Shown: piece after piece, positions 1 through 62,383 of the stretch | Layout: each line of letters opens with the position of its first letter | How positions within the stretch are numbered: position 1 is the stretch's first letter | Assembly (NCBI RefSeq): GCF_013760955.1 | Contig: NZ_JACDUL010000002.1 | Span: 380,719-444,718, forward strand | Length of the DNA: 64,000 nt | Reading direction: 5' to 3' | Source: Methanococcus maripaludis | Lineage (GTDB): Archaea; AGJL01; Methanococci; Methanococcales; Methanococcaceae | Translations under genes and position numbers: made by a program | Notes under the pieces: generated by a model | The model's database searches: none | Told to the model about the DNA's origin: nothing | What the model saw: only the letters and a program-made list of their open reading frames with translations

Positions 1-1
1 T

Positions 2-1099
2 CCTGCAATATACTACGGCATTAAACATTTTAAAAAATCAGGCGAATTCAATATTGCTGTTTTTCCTTCAGATCATTTAATAGAAAATGAAGAGTTATTA
101 CTTGAAACATTTTTAAATTCTGAAGAACTTGCGAAAAAATACCTGTTAACTTTTGGAATAACCCCAAATAAACCACATACGGGATATGGATACATAAAAC
201 CGGGAAAAAAACTTGAAAACGGAAATTTAGTTGAAGAATTTAAAGAAAAACCTGATTTGAAAACTGCCGAAGAATATATTAACAAATGTTATCTTTGGAA
301 CAGCGGCATGTTTTTATTAAATTCAGATATTTTTGAAAATGAACTTAAAATCCACGCTCCTGAGATTTATGAAGCATTTGAAACTGAAAACGTTGAAAAA
401 ACCTTTGAAAGTGTTCCAAACATATCAATAGATTATGGAATAATGGAAAAATCAAAAAATGTGGCAGTTGTTCCGATAAATATTACTTGGAATGACCTTG
501 GAAGCTTTGATGCATTTTACGACGAATTTGAAACTGATGAAAATAAAAACATAACCCCTGTTGAAAATATCTGCATAAATTCAAGCGGAAATTTAGTAAA
601 TACATCCGATAAAAAAATAGTTTCACTAATTGGTATCGATGATGCAATAATTGTAGATACGAGAGATTCGTTATTGATCTGTAAAAAAGGCCAGTCTGAA
701 AAAGTAAAAGATATTGTAAACATTTTAAAATCTAAAAAAGATGAAAGAGCAGAACTCCATAAAAAAGTTTACCGTTCATGGGGAATTTATGAAATTTTAG
801 AAGATTCAGAAATCTATAAAATTAAAAAAATTACTGTTCTTCCTGGAAAAAAATTAAGCTACCAGCTCCACCACCACAGGAGCGAACACTGGGTTATTGT
901 AAAAGGAATGGCGAAAGTTACTGTTGAAGGTGAAGAATACTTTGTAAGAAATGGGGAAAGTACATTTGTAAAATCAGGTTTAAAGCACAGATTAGAAAAC
1001 CCTGGGAAACTCCCTCTTGAAATGATAGAAATACAAATTGGAGAATATTTTAAAGAAGACGATATTATAAGGTTTGATGATGACTGGGGAAGAAAATAA
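2..1099 (+). CDS. manC: Mannose-1-phosphate guanylyltransferase / mannose-6-phosphate isomerase (5' end missing)
   Basis: Makes GDP-mannose from mannose-1-phosphate and GTP. The reading frame is open from base 2, so the start lies outside the window. The visible N-terminal part has the FPSDHLI segment of the nucleotidyltransferase domain. The last ~110 residues form the cupin (type II phosphomannose isomerase) domain, with a His cluster (LHHHRSEHW) and RNGESTFVKSG. GDP-mannose is the substrate of the GDP-mannose dehydratase encoded at 7226-8278, so this gene feeds the glycan island. Its end overlaps the next glycosyltransferase by about 20 bases, suggesting translational coupling. Family assignment is firm; whether both activities are retained is inferred. 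Confidence 0.93.
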   Translation, partial: PAIYYGIKHFKKSGEFNIAVFPSDHLIENEELLLETFLNSEELAKKYLLTFGITPNKPHTGYGYIKPGKKLENGNLVEEFKEKPDLKTAEEYINKCYLWNSGMFLLNSDIFENELKIHAPEIYEAFETENVEKTFESVPNISIDYGIMEKSKNVAVVPINITWNDLGSFDAFYDEFETDENKNITPVENICINSSGNLVNTSDKKIVSLIGIDDAIIVDTRDSLLICKKGQSEKVKDIVNILKSKKDERAELHKKVYRSWGIYEILEDSEIYKIKKITVLPGKKLSYQLHHHRSEHWVIVKGMAKVTVEGEEYFVRNGESTFVKSGLKHRLENPGKLPLEMIEIQIGEYFKEDDIIRFDDDWGRK

Positions 1100-1913
1100 T
1101 CCAACAGTTTCTGTTATAATGCCAAATTATAACAATGAAAAATATTTGCCTGAAGCAATTGAATCAATCTTAAATCAAACTTATGAAAATTTTGAATTTA
1201 TCATAATTGATGATTTTTCAACAGACACCTCTTGGAATATAATTCAAAATTACGCTAAAAAAGATAATAGAATTAAAGCATTTAGAAACGAACAGAATTT
1301 AAAAATTGTAAAAACAAGAAATAAAGGTTTTGAATTAATGTCTCCAAATTCAAAATATATTGCAATTTTTGATAGTGACGATATATCCCTACCAGAAAGA
1401 CTAGAAAAACAGGTTATGTTCTTGGAAAAAAACTTGGATTACGGGTTGATTGGAAGCCATACTTTGATAATTGATGAAAGTTCCGCCATAATAGGATCTA
1501 GAAAATATGAAACAGATTTTAAAAAAATAATTAAAAATATGGTTAAAAAAAATCAAATCGCTCAGCCTTCTGCAATGATCGGAAAATCTGTTTTAAATGA
1601 AGTTGGACATTATAACGAAAAATATACTCGATGTCAGGATTATGAATTGTGGTTTAGAATTGCTAAAGTTTTTAAAATTGGAAATTTAGATGAATTTTTA
1701 ATAAAATATCGTGTAAGTAAAACTCAAGGAAAAACGACCAACTTAAAAGAAACTTTGAAATTTACATTGGATATTCAGAAAAAATGGCTTTTTGATAAAA
1801 AATTTTTTAGTATCTTTGGAGTTATATATTACTTTTTAGAGCATTTGATGTATTTTTTACCCACAAATGTTGTTTTAAAATTGTTTAAGGTTTTAAATTA
1901 TGAAAAAGCTTAA
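1077..1913 (+). CDS. Family 2 glycosyltransferase
   Basis: A GT-A fold glycosyltransferase that would transfer a sugar from a nucleotide donor to a growing lipid-linked or surface glycan. The N-terminus shows the GT2 pattern VSVIMPNYNNEKYL, then IIDDFSTD, and the metal-binding DSDD around residue 98. The C-terminal third is hydrophobic (YYFLEHLMYFLP) and may lie at the membrane. The start is uncertain: TTG 1074, ATG 1077 and ATG 1080 are adjacent in frame, and all overlap the end of manC. It overlaps the following glycosyltransferase by 14 bases. Donor and acceptor cannot be read from sequence. Confidence 0.88.
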   Translation: MMTGEENNPTVSVIMPNYNNEKYLPEAIESILNQTYENFEFIIIDDFSTDTSWNIIQNYAKKDNRIKAFRNEQNLKIVKTRNKGFELMSPNSKYIAIFDSDDISLPERLEKQVMFLEKNLDYGLIGSHTLIIDESSAIIGSRKYETDFKKIIKNMVKKNQIAQPSAMIGKSVLNEVGHYNEKYTRCQDYELWFRIAKVFKIGNLDEFLIKYRVSKTQGKTTNLKETLKFTLDIQKKWLFDKKFFSIFGVIYYFLEHLMYFLPTNVVLKLFKVLNYEKA

Positions 1914-2697
1914 ATTATGTGTTTTAATTACCACAATGAATGAAAATATTAAACGAGTTAAGGAAGAATTACTGCCACAATTAAAAAATTGTGAAGTTGT
2001 AATCTCTCATCAAATTACCAACGGAAGTATAAAACCATATAATGAAATTCTTGGCAATAATGTTAAATATGTTTATATGTATGATAAGGGGTTATCCAAA
2101 AATAGAAATAATGCTTTAAAACATGCCACTGGTGACATATGTATTATTTGTGATGATGATGTAAATTTTGTTGATAATTTTGAAGAAAAAATTAAATCCT
2201 CGTATAGTAGTGAATCGATAGATATCGTAACGTACAAATCAGTAGATTTTGATGGGAAAGAGCGAAAAAATTATCCTAAAACAAAATTTAAACATAATTT
2301 AAAAAGTATACTATCGGTTAGTTCTATTGAAATTTCGTTTAAAAGAGATCCGGTAATTTCTAAAGGATTAACTTTTGATGAAAATTTTGGTTTTTCTAAA
2401 TATATAGGCTGTGAAGAAAATATTTTTCTAAAAGATTGTTTAGATAATGGATTAAATGTAATATTTGTTCCAGAACAAATAGTAATACATCCAATTGAAA
2501 GTTCCGGAACATTTTGGACAGAACATTCTGTTTACTCAAAAGGTGCTGCATTTAAAAGAATGTATGGTACGTTGGGAGGACTTTCGCTCTGTTTTATACT
2601 TTCACTTTTAAAATACAAAAGTTACGGCAAAAATTTAAGTTTTTTTAAATTTTTAAGGTTAATATTAAATGGATTCTTTGAATATACTAAAACATAA
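1900..2697 (+). CDS. GT2-like glycosyltransferase
   Basis: A 265-residue GT-A type glycosyltransferase, more divergent than its neighbours. The N-terminus (LCVLITTMNENIKRV) replaces the usual VSVIxPxYN motif. The core has GLSKNRNNALKHATGDI followed by a DDD metal-binding motif (CDDDVNF) near residue 88. The C-terminus carries a hydrophobic stretch (LGGLSLCFILSLLKY). It overlaps the upstream glycosyltransferase by 14 bases and ends two bases before the convergent gene at 2699, so it is the last gene of the rightward manC operon. The sugar specificity is unknown. Confidence 0.8.
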   Translation: MKKLKLCVLITTMNENIKRVKEELLPQLKNCEVVISHQITNGSIKPYNEILGNNVKYVYMYDKGLSKNRNNALKHATGDICIICDDDVNFVDNFEEKIKSSYSSESIDIVTYKSVDFDGKERKNYPKTKFKHNLKSILSVSSIEISFKRDPVISKGLTFDENFGFSKYIGCEENIFLKDCLDNGLNVIFVPEQIVIHPIESSGTFWTEHSVYSKGAAFKRMYGTLGGLSLCFILSLLKYKSYGKNLSFFKFLRLILNGFFEYTKT

Positions 2698-2698
2698 T

Positions 2699-3667
2699 TT
2701 ATTTAATAATATTTAAAAAATCCCAATATAGGCGATAAATTCCAAAAAACATTTTTTTCCCAAAACATGCTAATATATAATATATCAAAATTACGTTAAT
2801 ATACCCTTCAGTATTAAAGTACTGGTTCATTAATTTTTTAGCATCTTTAAAATTTCCCAATTTTAAATTTACTTCAATATTCGCTTTTAGAGTGTCACTT
2901 GAACAATCTAACATCAAATTTTCAATTTCATTAACATTAAGTTCTGAGTAATTGTCGGAACCTGTTTTAAGTCTCTGTTCATAGTATTCTAAAGCTTTTT
3001 TAGCATAATATTTCTGTTTAGTTGTTCTAGAGCATGAAATGGAATTTTGATTTATTCGATATTTTACCAAAATTTCAGGAATATTTTTTAAACGTTTTTT
3101 TTCGGAGAGTAACCTCAAGTATAAATCATAATCCTGTGCATTTACAAATTTTTCTCGATAATAGGTTTTTCCATTATTTCGAAACATTATTGTAGGATGA
3201 TTTATTGAATTTCTTTTTTCGAGTATCTTTTTTAATCGGGCTTCTGAAGTAATCATTTTATGTTTTACAATCGCTTTTCCGTTTCCATCCATATCAATTA
3301 TTCCCGAACCAATTAAAAAAATTTCAGGATTTTTTTCCATATATTCATACTGTACCTCTAACCGATATGGTAAGGAAATATCATCAGCATCCATAATTGC
3401 TATATAATTTCCTTTTGAAATATTAATCCCGTTGTTCCGTGATTCTGCTGCTCCAAGATTTTTTTCATTTTTTATTAGTCTTATTCGATCATCTTTTGAA
3501 GCATATCTCTCGAGTTCTGCCCATATTTCAAAATTGTTAGGATTATCCAAAATAATTATAAATTCAAAATCATTGAATGATTGGGATAATATTGAATCTA
3601 CTGAATTTTTTATGTAATCCACTGGTTCATTATATGTAGACATTATTACTGAAATTTTTGGATGCAT
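2699..3667 (-). CDS. Family 2 glycosyltransferase
   Basis: A 322-residue GT2 enzyme. It shows ISVIMSTYNEP at the N-terminus, IIILDNPNN, and the DADD metal-binding motif near residue 94, followed by ISLPYRLEVQ, which is typical of small GT2 enzymes of surface-polysaccharide clusters. The C-terminal ~100 residues form a helical extension without transmembrane segments except a hydrophobic tail. It is convergent with the preceding GT gene (one base between stop codons). Upstream, a 61-base gap separates it from the decayed TupA-like gene on the same strand. The acceptor is unknown. Confidence 0.88.
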   Translation of the reverse strand: MHPKISVIMSTYNEPVDYIKNSVDSILSQSFNDFEFIIILDNPNNFEIWAELERYASKDDRIRLIKNEKNLGAAESRNNGINISKGNYIAIMDADDISLPYRLEVQYEYMEKNPEIFLIGSGIIDMDGNGKAIVKHKMITSEARLKKILEKRNSINHPTIMFRNNGKTYYREKFVNAQDYDLYLRLLSEKKRLKNIPEILVKYRINQNSISCSRTTKQKYYAKKALEYYEQRLKTGSDNYSELNVNEIENLMLDCSSDTLKANIEVNLKLGNFKDAKKLMNQYFNTEGYINVILIYYILACFGKKMFFGIYRLYWDFLNIIK

Positions 3668-3728
3668 TTTGCAACTCCTTAAAATATTGTTAAATTTAAT
3701 TGGCCATACGATTCAACATATTATATAC

Positions 3729-4600
3729 TCATTTTTTTGTTTTAGATAATTCTATCCAGTTTCCCATTTCAATTTCAAATTCTTTTGGATTTATTTTTGC
3801 AGTTCCAGATTGGTGATAAAAAGTCATTTCCCCAAAATAGATTTTATCTTTGATTGAATAAAGATCAACTCTAACATGCGGGATTCCTTTGGACAAACGT
3901 TTGCTCAAATTTATCATTTTTTCAAGATTATTTGGTTTCGGACATTTGATTCCCAACTCTCGAGGATATGAAATTTCAGCACCTAACAAATTCCACTCCA
4001 AATCATATAAATTTCTTCTTTTTTTGGTTTTATCGGTGGTATTAAAATCTACCATTATAAATTTAGGGTTTCCATCACAACATAAAAACCGATAATCATT
4101 TAACTCCAAATTTTCATTATCTAAAAGGTATTTTTCACAGACTATCTTGGGTTTTACGTTTTTATACGGCCATTCTCTTGATAAATAATAATAATTCCTT
4201 TTTAAACATCTGTTGAGTTTTCTCCTAGCTTCTTTAAAATCAAACTTAGTTTTATCCTTACAAATTACTACACTTCCCGAATCATGATTACATTTTAATA
4301 CAAGTTGAAGAAGTTTCGAAAAATCAAGGTCATCAATTGCCATTTCACCATGAAATAATGTATTCTTCACCCATAGTTTAGAAATGTGGTTCCCAACATC
4401 AATTTATCAGCATGTTTTGCGTATTCGGGATTTTTTCATTTAATGTTTTGGATTCGTTAAGTTAAGTTTGTTTTTTTAACTTAGAATAATATTTAACTTT
4501 TATATATTGCTCATTAAGTGTGATATCAAATGCCCCTTTTAAAATATCCAAAAAATATAATATCCCATAATAACGGTCGGTTGTTTTTAGTTCATTAATT
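3729..4600 (-). pseudogene. TupA-like ATP-grasp gene, multiply frameshifted
   Basis: The 3' part (3729-4370, GTG, 213 codons) is open and resembles TupA-like ATP-grasp proteins of polysaccharide clusters (LKCNHDSGSVVICKDK, HVRVDLYS, YFGEMTFYHQSG). The normal N-terminal ~90 residues are not in that frame but are recoverable upstream in pieces. LKGAFDITLNEQYIKV lies at about 4520-4570, NPEYAKHADKLM at 4397-4433 in another frame, VGNHISK in the frame of the long ORF, and GEEYIISW near 4350-4372 in the third frame, before HGEMAIDDLDFSKL. At least four frame changes, and apparently a small deletion, separate these fragments. It is therefore a decayed gene, and the 213-codon ORF is probably not functional. 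The domain assignment comes from recall of the family, not a search. Confidence 0.8.
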
Positions 4601-4624
4601 AATGTAGTATACACCACTTAGCAC

Positions 4625-5173
4625 CTAATAAGGCCCCATTATATTACTTATTACAGGTTTAACTATTGAGTTATCCGGAATTTCTTGCCCATTCAATACT
4701 GCCCCAGATAATATCTTGCAGTTTTTTCCGATTTTTGTGTGGACTATTGTACAGCCCATTCCGATTTTTGTATTCGCTCCAATTTTACTTTCTGCGATAT
4801 TACATCCTGCACCAACCGTTACATTATCTGCAATCTTTGTATGCCCAATGATATTTCCACCTGAGCCCACCCTACAAAAATTACCGATTTTTGGAGCATT
4901 TCCGGTTTTTAAATTCCTTCCAATTGTAGTATTCTGCTGGATTACAGTATTTTCCCCTATTTCTGCGGCTTCCGACACCACTATGCCTACGTGGTGACCA
5001 AACCTACATTTTATGGCATCCGTGTTTGGGTATTCCCCTGAAAGGAGTATTGATATTATTGAAGTCAACATATGATGGAGAATTCTTGAAAATATGCTAT
5101 TTCCTTGTTTTGGAATTGGTTTTATATAAAAATTTGGATTTAAGGTTAATATGGCATATAATCTTTCTTTCAT
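4625..5173 (-). CDS. Serine O-acetyltransferase-like hexapeptide-repeat acyltransferase
   Basis: A left-handed beta-helix acyltransferase, about 182 residues from ATG 5173, or 190 from ATG 5197. Repeated hexapeptides (IGENTV, IGRNLK, IGNFCR, IADNVT, IGANTK, IGKNCK) fill residues ~75-165. The conserved region CRFGHHVGIVVSE resembles the active-site segment of serine and sugar acetyltransferases. In this glycan island it more likely O-acetylates a sugar than makes O-acetylserine, but this is inferred from position only. Neither start has a strong Shine-Dalgarno sequence. A GGGG about 10 bases before 5173 makes the shorter form slightly preferable. Confidence 0.8.
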   Translation of the reverse strand: MKERLYAILTLNPNFYIKPIPKQGNSIFSRILHHMLTSIISILLSGEYPNTDAIKCRFGHHVGIVVSEAAEIGENTVIQQNTTIGRNLKTGNAPKIGNFCRVGSGGNIIGHTKIADNVTVGAGCNIAESKIGANTKIGMGCTIVHTKIGKNCKILSGAVLNGQEIPDNSIVKPVISNIMGPY

Positions 5174-5232
5174 AGTGTGCCCCGTATTAATTAGCATTAT
5201 TTTTATCTTTTGAGAATATTTTTCAAGTTATA

Positions 5233-5368
5233 CTATAATTCAACTTTAATGATTAAGTTAAACCCATCAGTGAATTCTTTTAAATAAGCTTTTGGTTCAT
5301 TATATAACGCCATAATCACAAATTTTGCATATGACCCATAACACCGTTTTATAAATATCATTGGTTTT
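5233..5368 (-). pseudogene. Unidentified short gene remnant downstream of the fucosyltransferase
   Basis: Between the fucosyltransferase stop and the acyltransferase start an open frame reads LNEKPMIFIKRCYGSY and then ALYNEPKAYLKEFTDGF before stopping at 5233. It overlaps the end of the fucosyltransferase gene in another frame, has no Shine-Dalgarno site, and its first Met lies inside that gene. The composition looks protein-like. The simplest reading is the 3' end of a lost glycan-cluster gene, but I do not recognise the family. A chance ORF is the alternative. Confidence 0.35.
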
Positions 5369-6226
5369 TCATTTAATTTTAATCCACCCATTTGGTACAA
5401 TATTAACATTGTTTCGATCATTGACCCATTTTTTAGGTGAAAAAACCTTTTTTTCAGTATTTTGATTTAACCATGCTCCCCACCAACTAAAAGAACTGTT
5501 TGCAATAATATTGTTCTTACAATTACTCATTAAATACATATCCTGATAACTATATGGTCCAGTATTCCAATCCACATAGACTGGATCATCAATCCCCAAA
5601 TTAGATTTACACCAAGTTATATCATCTGAAAAAATTACGAATTTAGGGTTTTTCAAATTATTATTTGCCAAGTTTATAGCTTTATTGTAATATTCTAAAT
5701 TACATATGTTTCCATGGACGTTCAGTGCCTTTTGGTTAGTTACATAATCGCCCCTCCGTACATGGACACTAACAGAATTTATGGACTTTAAATACTCTGA
5801 AAATTCAGCATTTCTTTTATCAATATTTTTAAATGAAAAATCATTTAAAATTTCTGAACGAAAATTTTTAAAATAATTCTCATTTTGCCAATAACCTTCA
5901 AAATAACCATTAGTTACTTCAAAAACATTGTTATCATAATTAAAATTACTTTTTTCAAAAAAATGTGTTTTTTTAGGAAAAACTTTACGTTTTACATTAT
6001 ATATTAAATTTATGGGAATATCCCCTAATTTAAAACATTGTCTTATGGATGCATACTCAGGGCTTAATCCAAAAACCCACTCTAATTCATAACCATTGTG
6101 TGCATTGTTTTTTAAATACCACGATATATCCAATAAAACTTCCTGTCCCCTCTTTTTTAGTGATTTATATAATGCATATTGAAACATTTGATTTCCAAGC
6201 CCGCCTTTCAACTGTATTATCTTCAC
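5369..6226 (-). CDS. Alpha-1,2-fucosyltransferase, GT11 family
   Basis: Predicted to transfer L-fucose from GDP-fucose to a galactose-type acceptor in an alpha-1,2 linkage. The 285 residues cover the whole GT11 family. The N-terminus MKIIQLKGGLGNQMFQYALY is the signature glycine-rich motif. The donor-binding motif HVRRGDY occurs near residue 157, and the C-terminal motif NSSFSWWGAWLN near residue 245. It lies 66 bases downstream of GDP-fucose synthase and GDP-mannose dehydratase on the same strand, so donor synthesis and transfer are encoded together. The family call is strong. The exact linkage is inferred from the family; other GT11 members act on GlcNAc or other sugars. Confidence 0.92.
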   Translation of the reverse strand: MKIIQLKGGLGNQMFQYALYKSLKKRGQEVLLDISWYLKNNAHNGYELEWVFGLSPEYASIRQCFKLGDIPINLIYNVKRKVFPKKTHFFEKSNFNYDNNVFEVTNGYFEGYWQNENYFKNFRSEILNDFSFKNIDKRNAEFSEYLKSINSVSVHVRRGDYVTNQKALNVHGNICNLEYYNKAINLANNNLKNPKFVIFSDDITWCKSNLGIDDPVYVDWNTGPYSYQDMYLMSNCKNNIIANSSFSWWGAWLNQNTEKKVFSPKKWVNDRNNVNIVPNGWIKIK

Positions 6227-6292
6227 AATCTCACAAATTTACACTTTTTAGAAATATCTCCTTAAATTTAACTATATTATCCAAACTGATTC

Positions 6293-7216
6293 TTAAAAAT
6301 CATCATTCAAAACTTCTTTAACGCCATCTTCAAAGCTTCGGGGATTAAATTCAGGCATAATTTCTTTTAATTTCGAAATATCGGTTCTTTTTTCAAAAAC
6401 CCCGTCGGGTTTTGATAAATCCCAATTAATTTCAACATCAAAGTCAAGCACTTTTTTCATAATTTCGATATACTCTTTTATCGAATAATCAAATCCTGTT
6501 CCAATATTTATGATATCAGGACTGTTATAATTGTCCATTAAGTAAATACATGCATCAGCACAGTCATCAACATATAGGGCCTCCCTTCTTGGAATTCCAG
6601 TTCCCCAAAAGGTAAGTTCTTTTAAATTGTTATTTTTTGCATCTACAAACTTTTTAATTAATGAGGGAATAAAATGCCCATCTTCAAGGTCATACGTGTC
6701 ATTTGGACCATACATATTTGTGGGCATTACACAGATCGAATTTATTCCGTATTGTTTTTTATATAATTCACATCCAACAATTCCTAAAATTTTAGCAAGT
6801 GCATAACCTTTGTTAGATTCTTCTAAAAGGCCGTTTAAAAGCCTATTTTCAGAAATAGGTTGCGGATTTTCTTTTGGGTATATGCAAGTTGAACCAGTAT
6901 ATAGTATTTTTGTATCCTTAGAACAGTTTTTAATTGATTCTAAAACATTGAGAATCATTATTGAATTTTGGTATAAAAAGTCCGCATTTCTTTTCATGTT
7001 GCCGTAAATTCCGCCAACTAACCCTGCAACCATGAATAAATATTCCGGTTTTTCAGATTTTATGTATTCTTCAACCTGATTTTTATCCAACAGGTTAACG
7101 GATTTACTTGATGGATAGTTTACATTTGAATAACCTTTTTTAGAAAGTTGTCTAAAAATTGAACTTCCGACAAGGCCCGATCCACCAAAAATAGTTATTT
7201 TACTATTTTTATCCAT
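6293..7216 (-). CDS. fcl: GDP-L-fucose synthase
   Basis: Short-chain dehydrogenase (3,5-epimerase/4-reductase) converting GDP-4-keto-6-deoxymannose to GDP-L-fucose with NADPH. It shows the Rossmann motif GGSGLVGSSI at the N-terminus and the GDP-fucose-synthase signature GLVGGIYGN. The active-site segment YTGSTCIYP and the YALAK Tyr/Lys pair are present, as is MPTNMYGPND. The length (~307) is normal. The start at ATG 7216 is chosen because a GGTGA Shine-Dalgarno lies immediately upstream and overlaps the TAG stop of gmd. The alternative GTG 7225 is itself part of that site. It is directly translationally coupled to gmd. Confidence 0.95.
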   Translation of the reverse strand: MDKNSKITIFGGSGLVGSSIFRQLSKKGYSNVNYPSSKSVNLLDKNQVEEYIKSEKPEYLFMVAGLVGGIYGNMKRNADFLYQNSIMILNVLESIKNCSKDTKILYTGSTCIYPKENPQPISENRLLNGLLEESNKGYALAKILGIVGCELYKKQYGINSICVMPTNMYGPNDTYDLEDGHFIPSLIKKFVDAKNNNLKELTFWGTGIPRREALYVDDCADACIYLMDNYNSPDIINIGTGFDYSIKEYIEIMKKVLDFDVEINWDLSKPDGVFEKRTDISKLKEIMPEFNPRSFEDGVKEVLNDDF

Positions 7217-7225
7217 GTTATTCAC

Positions 7226-8278
7226 CTAATAAAGTTCAAAGTTTCCGCTTTTTAAAAGTTCATAGTCTGATTTTACCATTAATTCAACAAGTTCTTCAAA
7301 TTTAATTTTTGGTTCCCATTTTAGTTCTTTGGCTTTGGAAGGGTCCCCCAAAAGTAAATCTACCTCAGTTGGCCTAAAGTACTTTTTATTAACCTTAACT
7401 ACGATTTTTCCAGTATTCCTATCAATTCCAACTTCATCTGCACCAGTTCCTTCAAAGTAAATATCAATTCCAAGATGTTTTCCGGCAAGTTCAATAAATT
7501 CTCTAACGGAATGGGTTTCACCTGTTGCAATTACATAATCTTCGGGAATTTCTTGTTGTAGCATTAAATACATTGCTTCAACGTAATCTCTTGCATGGCC
7601 CCAATCCCGTTTAGCATCCAAATTTCCTAACTCCAAAACATCCTGCAATCCCAATTTTATTTTAGATAATCCGACAGTTATTTTTCGAGTAACAAAAGTG
7701 AGTCCCCTTCTTTCAGATTCATGGTTGAATAATATTCCATTGCATGCAAACATATCGTATGCTTCACGGTAATTTTTAATTATCCAATACCCATAAAGTT
7801 TTGCAACCCCATAAGGACTTCTTGGATAAAACGGAGTGGTTTCTGACTGGGGTGTTTCTAAAACTTTTCCATATAATTCAGAAGTTGATGCTTGGTATAG
7901 TTTAGTGCTTTTTTCCAAACCTAAAATTCTTACTGCTTCAAGAAGTCTCAAAGTTCCAAGAGCATCGATATTTGCAGTAACTTCAGGAATTTCAAAAGAA
8001 ACTTTCACGTGACTTTGCGCAGCCAAATTGTAAATTTCATTGGGTTTAATTTTTCCAATTATACTTGTAAGACTGGTAATATCCGTTAAATCCCCGTAAT
8101 GCAAAAAAAGTTTTTTATCAAGAATTTCTGGATTACCATACAGGTGATTTATCCTCCACGTATTAATTGTACTTGATCGTCTAACTAGTCCATGAACTTC
8201 ATAGCCTTTTTCTAAAAGAAATTCTGCTAAATAAGATCCGTCCTGACCAGTAATTCCGGTAATTAATGCTTTTTTCAT
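7226..8278 (-). CDS. gmd: GDP-mannose 4,6-dehydratase
   Basis: Converts GDP-D-mannose to GDP-4-keto-6-deoxy-D-mannose, the first committed step to GDP-fucose and other 6-deoxyhexoses. The 350 residues match the full family length. Visible motifs are [20 protein letters not shown] at the N-terminus, [12 protein letters not shown], the STSELYG active-site Ser/Glu region and the YGVAK catalytic Tyr/Lys pair near residue 155, then [15 protein letters not shown] precedes the ATG. It sits between the flippase (six bases upstream) and fcl (overlapping signals), so the three are cotranscribed. Confidence 0.97.
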
Positions 8279-8283
8279 TCAAG

Positions 8284-9786
8284 TCACCAGAGCTTAAAAC
8301 TCTTCAATTCATTTAAATTTAGTATATTTAATAAAAATACCAATAACAAATACATTATGAAATACAATATACAAGATAATAATATTAACAAGTATTCATT
8401 TGAAACCATTTCTTTTATAATTAATAAAGGTATTATCGAAATTATTGCAGAAGCTACCGATAAAGCGAATTTTTTAACAGGAAATTTATAATCTAAAAAT
8501 TTATTTAAATAATGAGCCTGTAAAACTTGAATTAAAACGTAACTCAGTGTTGTAGTAAATGCTGCCCCAACTGTTCCAAATTTTGGAATTAATAATAAAT
8601 TAGAGATTAAATTAAATAATGCCCCGATATATAATATCTTTGTTGAAATATGCGGTTTTCCGATTCCATTGAATACGTTAAATATGATGTTATTCATCGA
8701 TAAAAAGATTATTCCAAAACTTAAAATTGACATTGGAATGGCCGCTGTTAAATAATTTTCATTAAAAAATAAATTTATCAATACTGTCGGGAAATGTGCC
8801 AAAACTACTGCAAATGGAACTGAAATTATAAAGGAATAAGATAATATTTTTTTTAAACCATCTGAAAGATTCTTTTTTTCCCCCTTTTCCCACATTTCAG
8901 TACTCATTGGAAGCATTACCCTACATACTGCCGATGCAAAATAACTTAATACTAAAACTGTCGGCATTGCAACATTTCGATAATCTGCAACTGCATCAAG
9001 TCCGGTAAAGTAAGTTAAACATATCGAATCAAGGTACCCCATTACAATAAACCCTGCACTTCCAAACATTATTGGCATACTATATGAAAAAATATCTTTT
9101 AAAAGTTTTTTTGAAAGGTTAAATTTTTCATTAAAAAATTCTGGAAATATTTTTTTAAAAAAAATTATTCCATATAATCCAATCATTAAAATTGAATTAA
9201 ACGTATAAGCCAATACCGGAGAATATACCCCATACCCCCAATAAAGAAAAATAAGTGATAAGAACAAGATGCTTAAAATATTTAAAAAATTACATGTGCT
9301 AAACAGTTTTTGTCTTTGAAATCCTTGTATTGAATTAAAAAGTATGGATTTTATTCCATCAAAAATATAATATCCAAAAATCATTGTTATAAATAGGTTA
9401 AAAATTAACTGAAAATCTCCAAATTGATTTTGATTATTTATATAATTATTAATAATTAAAGGGGAAACCAGATACATTATAAATGCCACCAGTATTGCCA
9501 CCAATATCTGAATAACTAAAACAGAAATCAATGTTGATTTTATAAGATCTTTTTTATTTTGAACTAAAAATTTGGGAATAAAATAAATAACTGCATTATT
9601 CAATCCAAGACTCCTGAAAATTGCAATCATACCTATTAAATCCAAAATTGCATAAAATAATCCCACTTCAACTTTCGTTAAGGAATTTGCATAAAGTATC
9701 CTTACAAAATATCCAATAGGAGCAGCCAATATTAAAAATAAAAAATTCCAGCTAGTACCTTTGATCATTCGTTCTTTATAGTCCAA
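8284..9786 (-). CDS. Polysaccharide flippase (Wzx-like, MOP superfamily)
   Basis: A 500-residue integral membrane protein with about 12-14 hydrophobic segments spread over its whole length. The N-terminus (IKGTSWNFLFLILAAPIGY) is typical of Wzx/RfbX flippases that move lipid-linked oligosaccharides across the membrane. The ATSLSY-like region is replaced here by FTTTLSYVLIQVLQAHYL. It probably starts at TTG 9786, with AGGGGAT four bases upstream; ATG 9768 is an alternative. It is followed after five bases by gmd. In archaea, related proteins act in surface-glycan or lipid-linked oligosaccharide export. The cargo here is presumably the fucosylated unit made by neighbouring enzymes (inference). 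Confidence 0.88.
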   Translation of the reverse strand: MDYKERMIKGTSWNFLFLILAAPIGYFVRILYANSLTKVEVGLFYAILDLIGMIAIFRSLGLNNAVIYFIPKFLVQNKKDLIKSTLISVLVIQILVAILVAFIMYLVSPLIINNYINNQNQFGDFQLIFNLFITMIFGYYIFDGIKSILFNSIQGFQRQKLFSTCNFLNILSILFLSLIFLYWGYGVYSPVLAYTFNSILMIGLYGIIFFKKIFPEFFNEKFNLSKKLLKDIFSYSMPIMFGSAGFIVMGYLDSICLTYFTGLDAVADYRNVAMPTVLVLSYFASAVCRVMLPMSTEMWEKGEKKNLSDGLKKILSYSFIISVPFAVVLAHFPTVLINLFFNENYLTAAIPMSILSFGIIFLSMNNIIFNVFNGIGKPHISTKILYIGALFNLISNLLLIPKFGTVGAAFTTTLSYVLIQVLQAHYLNKFLDYKFPVKKFALSVASAIISIIPLLIIKEMVSNEYLLILLSCILYFIMYLLLVFLLNILNLNELKSFKLW

Positions 9787-9813
9787 TCATATCCCCTGAA
9801 AAATAAAAATATT

Positions 9814-10692
9814 TTAAATCTCTTTAATTCCATTTTCTAATTCAAATTCAGGAATCCAACCCAAAGTTTTAGCTTTGGAATAATCAATATAAATTCTATA
9901 AACTTCGCCTTCTCTTTCTTTTTCATAAATTGGATCTTTATTAAAACCAGTTTCTGAAGCGATAATTTTAAAAAGTTCATTTACAGATGTTTCGTTTCCA
10001 TAACCAATATTTACAATATCATTTTTCCAATCTAGGGCCATTAAATTTGCTTTTGCAACGTCTTTTACATTCACGAAATCTCGGGTCTGATTTCCATCAC
10101 CATATATTATTGGAGTTTCCCCTTTTTTCATTTTATCAATAAAAATTGAAATAACTCCTGCTTCACCAAGAGGATCCTGCCTACTCCCATAAACATTGGA
10201 ATATCTTAAAATGCAATATTCGATCCCGTAAAGTCTAGCATATAATTTAATATACTCTTCTGCACAGAATTTACTTAAACCGTAGGGAGATAATGGATTT
10301 ACAGCGTGTTTTTCATCAACTGGTAAATATTCGGGTTCACCGTAAACTGCACCTCCTGAAGACGAAAATATAATCTTTTTAACGCCATATTCTTTTATTT
10401 TTTCTAAAATATTAATTGTTCCTAAAACATTTATATTTGCATCAAAAACTGGATTTTCAACTGAGGTTCTAACGTTGATTTGTGCTGCTTCATGAATTAC
10501 ACATTCAAATCCGGTTAAATCCAAATTTTTATCTAAAATATCTCCTTTAATAAATTTTGCTGAAGAATTCAAATTTTTTTCATTTCCAGTGCTTAAATTA
10601 TCCAAAACAGATACATCGTGCCCGTTTTCGATTAATAAATCAACAATGTGGCTTCCAATAAATCCTGCACCGCCAGTTACCAAAATTTTCAA
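9814..10692 (-). CDS. galE: UDP-glucose 4-epimerase-like NAD-dependent epimerase
   Basis: Extended SDR epimerase/dehydratase. The NAD-binding motif GGAGFIGSHIVD is at the N-terminus, with HEAAQINVRTSVE, the SSSGGAVYG active-site segment and the catalytic YGLSK Tyr/Lys pair near residue 142. RYSNVYGSRQDP marks the UDP-hexose epimerase clade common in archaeal glycan clusters. Translation begins at TTG 10692, preceded by GGTGAAATT. At 292 residues it ends a little earlier than usual (~305-310), but all catalytic elements are present. It is likely to supply UDP-galactose or a related sugar together with the GalU encoded just upstream. Substrate specificity (UDP-Glc versus UDP-GlcNAc) is not settled. 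Confidence 0.87.
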   Translation of the reverse strand: MKILVTGGAGFIGSHIVDLLIENGHDVSVLDNLSTGNEKNLNSSAKFIKGDILDKNLDLTGFECVIHEAAQINVRTSVENPVFDANINVLGTINILEKIKEYGVKKIIFSSSGGAVYGEPEYLPVDEKHAVNPLSPYGLSKFCAEEYIKLYARLYGIEYCILRYSNVYGSRQDPLGEAGVISIFIDKMKKGETPIIYGDGNQTRDFVNVKDVAKANLMALDWKNDIVNIGYGNETSVNELFKIIASETGFNKDPIYEKEREGEVYRIYIDYSKAKTLGWIPEFELENGIKEI

Positions 10693-46200: not shown

Positions 46201-46800
46201 TTACTCTTCAATTATTACTTTTTCAATTATTACGTCTTCTACTGGCCAGTTTTGATACTGCCCATTATTTGCAGTTTCCACACTTTCAATTTCATCGAGA
46301 ACATCGAAACCGTCGATCATTTTACCAAATACTGCGTAACCGTAGTTTGAGTCATCTTGATAATCCAAAAATGAATTGTCAACCGTGTTTATGAAGAACT
46401 GGCTTGTTGCTGAATCCACTACACTGGTTCTTGCCATTGCGATAGTTCCTCTTTTGTTTGAGAGTCCGTTATCGGCTTCATTCTTAATCGGATCAAGCGT
46501 TTCTTTTTTAGTTCCATTTACAGTAAAACCACCACCCTGGACCATGAAATCACTTATTACCCTGTGAAAGATTGTTCCTTCGTAAAATCCTGATTCTGCA
46601 TACGTTTTGAAGTTTTCAACGGTTATTGGCGCTTTATCAGGGTAGAGTTCAAAAGTCATGTTTCCGTAATTCGTCTGAATTGTCGCGTAAACTATTTTCC
46701 CAGTTTCATCAGAATTTGTAGAATTTTCGGTGCATCCTGCAAAACTGGTTAATAGAACTATCGATGTTAAAATTATGAAAATAACGTTTTTAAAATCCAT
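46201..46800 (-). CDS. Cyclophilin-type peptidyl-prolyl isomerase, lipoprotein
   Basis: A 199-residue cyclophilin with an N-terminal lipoprotein signal (hydrophobic helix ending LTSFAGC). The mature part (residues ~36-199) is a compact cyclophilin: GTIFHRVISDFMVQGGGFT, RGTIAMARTSVVDSATSQFF and YGYAVFGKMIDG. These include the catalytic Arg and Phe/Gln. The lipid anchor suggests it folds proteins outside the membrane. It follows a near-identical cytosolic copy (46842-47330) by about 41 bases and shows long stretches of nucleotide identity with it. Confidence 0.92.
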   Translation of the reverse strand: MDFKNVIFIILTSIVLLTSFAGCTENSTNSDETGKIVYATIQTNYGNMTFELYPDKAPITVENFKTYAESGFYEGTIFHRVISDFMVQGGGFTVNGTKKETLDPIKNEADNGLSNKRGTIAMARTSVVDSATSQFFINTVDNSFLDYQDDSNYGYAVFGKMIDGFDVLDEIESVETANNGQYQNWPVEDVIIEKVIIEE

Positions 46801-46841
46801 ATTTTCACCAAAAAATAAATAAAATAATAGTTAAAAAATAA

Positions 46842-47330
46842 TTATTCGATTGTAACTTTTTCAATTATTACGTCTTCAACTGGCCAGTCTGCGAAGTATC
46901 CTCTGTTTCCAGTTTTAACTGCTGCAATTTTATCAAGAACTTCAAAACCCTCAGTCATTTCGCCAAATACTGCGTAACCGTAGTTTGAATCATTTTGGTA
47001 GTTTAAAAACATGTTGTCAACGGTGTTTATGAAGAACTGGCTTGTTGCCGAATCTACAACGTTGGTTCTAGCCATTGCGATAGTTCCTCTTTTGTTTGAG
47101 AGTCCGTTTTTAGCTTCGTTTTTGATTGGAGCAAAAGTTTCTTTTTGAATTCCATCTTTTGTAAAACCGCCACCTTGAATCATGAATCCTTTTATTACCC
47201 TATGAAAGATTGTTCCTTCAAAAAATCCAGTTTCTGCGTATTTTTTGAAATTTTCAACAGTTATCGGTGCTTTTTCTTCAAATAATTCTATTTTCATTGT
47301 TCCAAGTGTCGTCTGAATTGTAGCAATCAT
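46842..47330 (-). CDS. Cyclophilin-type peptidyl-prolyl isomerase, cytosolic
   Basis: A 162-residue cyclophilin without a signal peptide, starting directly with the beta-strand MIATIQTTLGTMKIELF. GTIFHRVIKGFMIQGGGFT, RGTIAMARTNVVDSATSQFF and YGYAVFGEMTEGFEVLDKI are present. It is the parental or sister copy of the lipoprotein cyclophilin that follows on the same strand. Confidence 0.95.
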   Translation of the reverse strand: MIATIQTTLGTMKIELFEEKAPITVENFKKYAETGFFEGTIFHRVIKGFMIQGGGFTKDGIQKETFAPIKNEAKNGLSNKRGTIAMARTNVVDSATSQFFINTVDNMFLNYQNDSNYGYAVFGEMTEGFEVLDKIAAVKTGNRGYFADWPVEDVIIEKVTIE

Positions 47331-47438
47331 CTTTTCACCAAAAAATAAATTTTTTAATTAATTTTCAAAAATTAAACGTTTCAGATTATTTTTATAAAAT
47401 TCCAGTATAAATTATTTACTTAAATTTTGCCAATTTAT

Positions 47439-60164: not shown

Positions 60165-60953
60165 ATGATTATTACGGTAGCTTCTGGAAAAGGAGGAGTT
60201 GGAAAAACGACAACTTCTGCAAATTTGGCGGTTGCACTTTCCAAACTCGGCAAAAAAACTATTGTAATTGATGGCGATATTTCAATGGCTAATTTAGGGC
60301 TGATATTTGATTTTGAAAAAAACAGACCGTCCATTCATGAAGTTCTCGCAGAAGAGTGTTCAGTAAGAGATGCAATTTACAAACATAAAACCGGTGCATT
60401 TGTACTTCCCGCAAGCCTTTCAATTGCAGGTTATAAAAAATCTGACCTAGATTTATTCCCTGATGTTATAAATGAAATTGCTGATGAATACGATTACGTA
60501 ATTATCGACGCTCCAGCAGGTTTGAATAAAGATATGGCAATTCACCTTGCAATTGCAGATAAAATCCTTCTTGTAGTAACTCCTGAGCTTTTTTCAATTG
60601 CGGATGCGATGAAAATTAAAGAAAGCAGCGAAATGGCAGGAACTAACGTAATGGGAATTGTTTTAAATAGAACTGGAAAAGATTTCGGTGAAATGGGGCC
60701 TGACGAAATTGAAATGATTTTGGAAGAAAAAATTGTTGGATTGATCCCCGAAGATGGAAATATTAGAAATGCGACCCTTAAAAAAATGGATGTAATCCAG
60801 TACAGTCCAAGAAGCCCCGCTTCAAAAGCATACACTGAACTTGCTCTAAAAGTTACAGGGTCATACGTTGACATGGATAAAATCGAAGAAATGTATAACG
60901 AAAGTTTCTTTGAAAAATTAAAAAGAAGCGTTTTTTCAAAATTTAAGAAATAA
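60165..60953 (+). CDS. minD: MinD/ParA-type ATPase
   Basis: A deviant Walker A ATPase of the MinD family, 262 residues. ASGKGGVGKTTTSANLAVAL is the P loop with the signature lysine, followed by IDGDISMANLGLIF and DYVIIDAPAGLNKDMAI (Walker B). The C-terminus ends with a basic/hydrophobic helix (EKLKRSVFSKFKK), similar to the MinD amphipathic membrane-targeting helix. Archaeal MinD homologues position surface or motility structures rather than division in many cases. GGTGAT precedes the ATG. Confidence 0.92.
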   Translation: MIITVASGKGGVGKTTTSANLAVALSKLGKKTIVIDGDISMANLGLIFDFEKNRPSIHEVLAEECSVRDAIYKHKTGAFVLPASLSIAGYKKSDLDLFPDVINEIADEYDYVIIDAPAGLNKDMAIHLAIADKILLVVTPELFSIADAMKIKESSEMAGTNVMGIVLNRTGKDFGEMGPDEIEMILEEKIVGLIPEDGNIRNATLKKMDVIQYSPRSPASKAYTELALKVTGSYVDMDKIEEMYNESFFEKLKRSVFSKFKK

Positions 60954-61003
60954 TTACTCTTTTTTGAACTTTTAAAATATTAAAAAAATAGAAAATTAAA
61001 ATT

Positions 61004-62383
61004 TTATTTTTTGCAACTTCCGCATTCAAATTTGCAAGACACGTCTGTTGGATATTCTCCGTTTAAACATGCTAAACAGAGGTCATCTCTTCCAATTGCT
61101 TCGACTAATCCTTCAACACTTAAATATGCAACAGAATCTGCACCAATCATTTCTGCTATTTCTTCATTGGTTTTTGAATTTGCAATTAATTCCTTTGTTG
61201 TAGCCATGTCTATTCCGTAAAAACATGGTGAAACAATTCTTGGTGACCCGATTCTCAGGTGAACTTCTTTTGCACCTGCTTTTTTAACCATTTTCATGAT
61301 TTTTCCAGATGTAGTTCCCCTTACAATACTATCATCAATCAACATGACTTTTTTATCTTTTAAAAGGTGTTTTACGGGGTTTAACTTCAATCTTACTGCA
61401 AGATCCCTTTCTTCCTGTGTTGGAAGGATAAATGTTCTTCCAATGTATCTATTCTTAATTAAAGCTTCGTAGTAAGGAATTTCTGCTTCTTCAGTGTACC
61501 CTTGTGAAAAAATAATTCCCGAATCTGGAACTGGTGATACAATATCGACTTCTTCAGGAGTCTCCCTTGCTAAAATCTTTCCAATATTTCTTCTAACTGC
61601 ATAAACGCTTATTCCATCGATTACTGAATCAGGCCTTGCAAAATAAACATATTCAAACATGCACGTTGATGCTTTTTCTTTTGCATTTGGTAATTTGTAT
61701 GTGTTAATTCCATTTTTATTTACAACAACCATTTCTCCAGGGGCAACATCCCTTTCGAATTCAACGTCAACGATATCAAGAGCACAGCTTTCAGAACTGA
61801 AATAGTATGCGCCGTCATCTTTTCCAATACATAATGGCTTAAATCCGTTTGGATCCCTTAAAGCTATCAATGTGTCATCGTAGATGATTAAAAGAGAATA
61901 AGCACCATTTAATTTTTGCGTCACGTTTGTGATTGCAGAAATAATATCATCATTTTTTAAAAGTTCCCTAACTAAAAGTTGAGCAATAACTTCAGAATCG
62001 GTTGTAGAAACAAAAATATGTCCCTTTTTTTCGAGTTCGTGTTTTAATTCTTTTGAATTTACAATATCCCCATTGTGGGCAATTGCAATTTTTCCAAAAG
62101 TGCTGTTTACAACAAACGGCTGACAGTTGTCAATTATGTTTCCGCCAGTTGTGGAATACCTTACATGGCCTACCCCAATATGGCCGTACAAATTTTGTAA
62201 TTCCTTGTTGGAAAATACTTCAGGAACCAATCCCAATCCCTTGTAGTGGCCTATTTCTTTGCCGTTTCCGACAGCAATTCCAGCACCTTCCTGCCCCCTG
62301 TGCTGAAGCGCGTAAAGACCATAGTAAACTTTTTTTACAATGTTACTTTTTTCATGAGAATAAATTCCAAAGATTCCACACAT
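61004..62383 (-). CDS. purF: Amidophosphoribosyltransferase
   Basis: First committed step of purine synthesis: PRPP and glutamine to phosphoribosylamine. ATG 62383 is chosen so that Cys2 becomes the N-terminal nucleophile (MCGIFGIYSHE). HRGQEGAGIAV, YGHIGVGHVRYST, the PRPP loop MLIDDSIVRGTT and EIPYYEALIKNRYIGRTF follow. C-terminal cysteines (CLACLNGEYP, CKFECGSCK) indicate the [4Fe-4S] form. The frame to 62392 is open but the ATG has the GTGAT Shine-Dalgarno upstream. Confidence 0.97.
   Translation of the reverse strand: MCGIFGIYSHEKSNIVKKVYYGLYALQHRGQEGAGIAVGNGKEIGHYKGLGLVPEVFSNKELQNLYGHIGVGHVRYSTTGGNIIDNCQPFVVNSTFGKIAIAHNGDIVNSKELKHELEKKGHIFVSTTDSEVIAQLLVRELLKNDDIISAITNVTQKLNGAYSLLIIYDDTLIALRDPNGFKPLCIGKDDGAYYFSSESCALDIVDVEFERDVAPGEMVVVNKNGINTYKLPNAKEKASTCMFEYVYFARPDSVIDGISVYAVRRNIGKILARETPEEVDIVSPVPDSGIIFSQGYTEEAEIPYYEALIKNRYIGRTFILPTQEERDLAVRLKLNPVKHLLKDKKVMLIDDSIVRGTTSGKIMKMVKKAGAKEVHLRIGSPRIVSPCFYGIDMATTKELIANSKTNEEIAEMIGADSVAYLSVEGLVEAIGRDDLCLACLNGEYPTDVSCKFECGSCKK

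Follow-up and report, generated by a model that had tools for sequence, protein, structure and literature searches.

The region at positions 3729 to 4600 of the window (the whole stretch of 64,000 nucleotides of Methanococcus maripaludis DNA analyzed here) very probably holds, judging from its sequence, a TupA-like ATP-grasp amidoligase gene that is broken and most likely a pseudogene. On the minus strand, a family member of nearly full length is traceable, with an open frame remaining only in its C-terminal part. Several lesions break the frame relative to intact relatives, and their occurrence goes beyond chance or method error. The initial annotation had described a multiply frameshifted TupA-like gene in decay rather than a short gene. 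This description is well supported by the match to PF14305, by fragments in three frames that stand in order in the alignment, by shuffle and stretch controls, and by a test on intact homologues. Annotators could take the 213-codon remainder for a normal short gene.

Tracing of the N-terminal part

The 3′ open reading frame (ORF) matched PF14305 (ATPgrasp_TupA) over profile positions 47 to 240 of 241 with a score of 181.3 bits, compared with the curated Pfam cut-off of 25, which places it in the family. The N-terminal part of PF14305 was not found in one open frame and was traceable only through about six frame changes. None of the NCBIfam models matched the ORF or its intact Bacillales homologue at an E-value of 0.001.

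As the initial annotation had proposed, the region was compared with intact TupA-like proteins. A frameshift-tolerant DNA alignment was made against a profile built from five intact proteins of the TupA-like ATP-grasp family, from a Bacillales metagenome-assembled genome (MAG; L002), a Lactococcus garvieae plasmid (L007), Paenibacillus (L008), Parabacteroides (L009), and an IMG/VR contig (L010). The alignment on the minus strand spanned 4515 to 3747 and contained about six frame changes (near 4470, 4448, 4425, 4402, 4376, and 4347), two short deletions, and a one-codon deletion, with gaps at profile positions 52–60, 88–91, and 105. The number of frame changes called varied with the penalty: seven at penalty 6, six at 8 and at 10, four plus one stop at 12, and one plus one stop at 15. 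"Several" is secure, and six is the best estimate.

The N-terminal profile score of 58.4 was reached by none of 1000 dinucleotide shuffles (maximum 40.0) and by none of 1000 other stretches of the window on either strand (maximum 37.2). At penalty 8, the same frame changes were called with each of the five leave-one-out profiles, with shifts of at most 3 nt. When each intact homologue was left out of its own profile and treated in the same way, no frame change was called in any of the five at penalties 8 and 10; at penalty 6, two were called in one of them.

The minus strand contains all four peptide fragments named in the initial annotation, spread over three frames, and the profile alignment placed them in family order. 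Two details need correction: the residues upstream of about 4515, including LKGAFDITL, are in frame but lie outside the supported homology (the extreme N-terminus of the family is variable), and the final residues of NPEYAKHADKLM sit at a frame change. Within the broken stretch lies the family's QWLK-DKY segment, where the linker lysine, the first catalytic lysine of ATP-grasp enzymes, is expected. This placement is based on the general ATP-grasp layout in the part of PMC4431377 consulted; equating the lysine with the DKY motif is our own reading and not that of PMC4431377.

Table 1 Features of the broken TupA-like gene and its surroundings (positions in the window unless a record is named).
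Feature	Position	Strand	Evidence
Remaining 213-codon ORF, ATP-grasp core of TupA-like protein	3729..4370	-	PF14305, E 3e-53
Broken N-terminal part, about six frame changes and two short deletions	4347..4515	-	Frameshift-tolerant alignment and controls
Probable extreme N-terminus, same frame as first traceable segment, homology unsupported	4516..4617	-	ORF 4462-4617; alignment starts at 4515
GT2 glycosyltransferase gene downstream, open	2699..3667	-	PF00535, E 4.8e-31
Hexapeptide-repeat acyltransferase gene upstream, open	4625..5197	-	Hexapep PF00132, E 4.1e-14
Probable remnant, start of GT2 glycosyltransferase gene	5191..5326	-	Score 56.5 vs neighboring GT2
Fucosyltransferase-like gene, GT11	5369..6226	-	PF01531, E 7.6e-32
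Epimerase-family gene, GDP-fucose synthase by inference	6293..7225	-	PF01370, E 2e-49; beside dehydratase
GDP-mannose 4,6-dehydratase gene	7226..8278	-	PF16363, E 5.9e-151
Flippase-like polysaccharide exporter gene	8284..9786	-	PF01943, E 2.9e-38
Dehydrogenase gene in relatives G001-G003	L018 3555-4889, L020 12978-14300, L034 6508-7848

Clustering of the lesions and alternative readings

The six frame changes are all confined to about 168 nt; the 600 nt that follow are free of them. Uniform placement gives such clustering with a post hoc probability of 1.1e-4, or of 0.0023 (also post hoc) with only four events. Over the whole gene, the N-terminal part is damaged and the 3′ part is little damaged, because the breakage of invariant columns in the latter is in the range of left-out homologues: in profile positions 106–291, the window breaks 9–13 of the 46–57 columns that are invariant in four homologues, and a left-out homologue breaks 2–13. 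The 3′ part retains most invariant residues; at the ORF start, the conserved P and F are altered. Loss of the TupA-like gene is ordinary decay in a variable, fast-changing surface-glycan locus, and the clustering is the one feature that uniform decay leaves unexplained. Such a pattern could reflect a recent break accompanied by a burst of local damage, selection acting on the 3′ ORF, or a fault in the sequence at this place.

A local sequencing or assembly fault, with the gene intact in the organism, is an unlikely source of the frame changes. Their confinement to a short stretch next to a clean one would fit such a fault, as would the short runs of A that adjoin several of them, but the short deletions at profile positions 52–60 and 88–91 are atypical for read errors, and no true frameshift was found in the approximately 47.6–47.9 kb of the window compared with two relatives. 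The control took stop-to-stop ORFs of 100 aa or more, also antisense ones, from the regions of relatives that correspond to the window; tblastn placed them on it, and matches of at least 55% identity were kept. This placed 86 ORFs from relative G001 (47,617 bases), 82 from G002 (47,896), and nine from G003 (4,832). Three of the 177 matched in more than one frame; two of these are the same adjacent pair of copies at 46234–47339, seen from each of two relatives, and the third (60545–61062) involves frames antisense to or beside other long ORFs. No true frameshift was seen elsewhere in about 48 kb of the window, in a control that covers genes with a relative and only a minor part of the glycan cassette. 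A single bad spot in the assembly is possible.

Two minor observations were made during this comparison. The two adjacent copies at 46234–47339, on the minus strand, match one gene each of two relatives, at 87–89% and about 75% identity, and are perhaps a tandem duplication. The ppsA match of G001 (L012) contains one TGA by the count of the search tool.

We consider it quite improbable that the N-terminal part is dead while the 213-codon remainder is expressed and retained as a shorter protein. The frame that stays clean across 600 nt and the number of broken invariant columns, compared above with that of left-out homologues, are consistent with such a protein. Against it stand the loss of the segment presumed to carry the first catalytic lysine, the altered P and F at the ORF start, and the absence of a well-placed Shine-Dalgarno (SD)-like site: no anti-SD-like site was found before the GTG at 4370, and a GGTGA lies only 1 nt before the ATG at 4343. 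The SD argument against expression is weak, because several intact genes of the island also have little or no SD-like site, as scored. There is a small chance, no better than slender, that selection has preserved the C-terminal ATP-grasp core, after loss of its N-terminal part, as a stand-alone protein of an archaeal surface-glycan pathway; this would account for the contrast between about 168 nt full of frame changes and a further 600 nt free of them. That the upstream fragments are chance matches in a gene that is simply short or truncated is extremely improbable: high penalties do cut the number of frame changes called to one plus a stop, but neither the shuffles nor the other stretches reached the score, and the fragments stand in family order.

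Distribution, origin, and predicted function of the family

The source genome (1.76 Mb, seven contigs) is 99.69% complete. Methyl-coenzyme M reductase was found in it and in all six other genomes of the genus examined, and among 14 control genomes only in Methanocaldococcus jannaschii and Methanosarcina acetivorans. PF14305 was present in one of the seven genus genomes and one of 36 phylum genomes, each time only the source genome. The initial annotation had also proposed to look for an intact copy in related genomes. The source genome itself, the six other genus genomes, and the phylum sample (35 other genomes) all lacked one, so the relatives could not show an ancestral intact state. In the six other genus genomes, the DNA at 3680–5400 gave only matches of 36–46 nt, in three of the six.

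All intact copies that were found came from bacterial records, apart from one in a viral-contig record. In the collection of bacterial and archaeal genomes, searched by a pattern-based scan that detects close relatives only, the single match was the Bacillales MAG (47% identity). Plasmids gave 129 matching records, all below 60% identity, with 45% identity to the L. garvieae plasmid protein. Among viral contigs, no relative of the window ORF was found, and one relative of the Bacillales protein (L010) was; two phage records also match the Bacillales protein. The intact Bacillales homologue had no match among solved structures at E-values up to 1. A structure model of it, built from a three-row alignment, had a mean pLDDT of 54.8 and was too poor to use.

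Because none of the other 35 genomes in the phylum sample has PF14305, the gene looks, from these sequence comparisons, like one horizontally gained from bacteria and then broken. It would have arrived with, or into, an exchangeable glycan cassette: a glycan amidoligase of bacterial type would have entered a methanogen and been disrupted there. A literature search was made on pseudogenes at glycan loci of Methanococcus; among the matches listed, the only one naming a pseudogene concerns Francisella. Among those listed for Methanococcus with glycosylation gene clusters or ATP-grasp, nothing was on this gene.

By analogy with the TupA-like domain of Cj1438, the intact enzyme would have linked an amino compound to a uronic-acid carboxylate in the surface glycan; amide ligation on a sugar carboxylate is predicted from this likeness. 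The amidoligase function would have been lost when the N-terminal part broke. The family name comes from the teichuronopeptide of alkaliphilic Bacillus (PMC8153356, in the part consulted). The 3′ ORF resembles bacterial PF14305 proteins in its extensive match to the family and in its setting, since the Bacillales and L. garvieae copies also lie among glycosyltransferase genes; unlike the bacterial proteins, the copy in the archaeal host is broken in its first third. According to the section of PMC11800379 used here, glucuronic acid is amidated at its C6 carboxylate by the TupA-like domain of Cj1438. This C-terminal domain of the Campylobacter jejuni protein is of the same named fold class and acts on a surface glycan, but, unlike the window gene, it is a working domain and is fused to a glycosyltransferase; it is likened here by description and not by sequence.

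Methanococcus N-glycans carry threonine on mannuronic acid in M. voltae and M. maripaludis, and deleting the epimerase gene MMP1090 from M. maripaludis led to a smaller flagellin (PMC2952790, in part). In the portion of this 2010 review consulted, the enzyme attaching the threonine is given as not identified at that time. An amino acid on mannuronic acid is the type of product that a TupA-like enzyme could make, and such an enzyme is of the right kind for the threonine-adding step. However, the family is not the genus-wide threonine-adding enzyme, since it is absent from the other six genus genomes. For the same reason, the intact enzyme would have made a lineage-specific decoration. The initial annotation took the decay to show that the glycan structure has changed in this lineage, which goes too far: the cassette differs between species, and the gene may never have been functional in the lineage after its arrival. 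A change of the glycan itself is what we infer, not what we observed.

The surrounding glycan cassette

The cassette of the TupA-like gene comprises glycosyltransferases, a flippase-like gene, and a branch from GDP-mannose to GDP-fucose (Table 1), in which the epimerase-family gene is read as GDP-fucose synthase because it adjoins the dehydratase gene. The flanks of the cassette are conserved. The left flank consists of a gene that we take to be phosphoglucomutase-like and a gene without a Pfam match at an E-value of 1e-8; the right flank consists of epimerase and galU-like genes, and the epimerase at 9814–10692 is presumably the counterpart of MMP1090. Between the flanks, G001 has a UDP-glucose/GDP-mannose dehydrogenase gene together with PfkB-kinase and SIS-domain genes, which we assume to represent a heptose pathway, and G003 has a different gene set. 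The content of G002 differs too (only the right flank lies within the stretch read), and no flank gene was found in the stretch read of G004. When window positions 1–9800 were set against L018–L021, the flanks were kept and the gene set between them was different wherever both flanks were seen (G001 and G003). As far as gene content tells, the locus is an exchangeable, serotype-like cassette for surface glycans; close relatives differ in what it contains, much as is seen for bacterial capsule or O-antigen loci.

In the G001–G003 stretches, nothing closely corresponds to the cassette's dehydratase and fucose-synthase genes; the best matches were other epimerase-family genes at 22–29% identity. 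The UDP-glucose/GDP-mannose dehydrogenase gene lies in the locus of G001–G003, and the two copies of the source genome are on contigs C3 and C4. We would guess that a missing local source of uronic acid fits the loss of a uronic-acid amidoligase.

A second gene remnant probably lies near the TupA-like gene, between the hexapeptide and fucosyltransferase genes. The score of this GT2 remnant was reached by one of 600 other stretches; hmmscan gave no match for the ORF there, and a search of plasmids with its 30 residues gave one match at an E-value of 3, which is of no use. The stretch at 4501–5250, which holds the hexapeptide gene, has a G+C content of 0.35–0.37, compared with about 0.27–0.30 in its neighbors, and is perhaps of separate origin.
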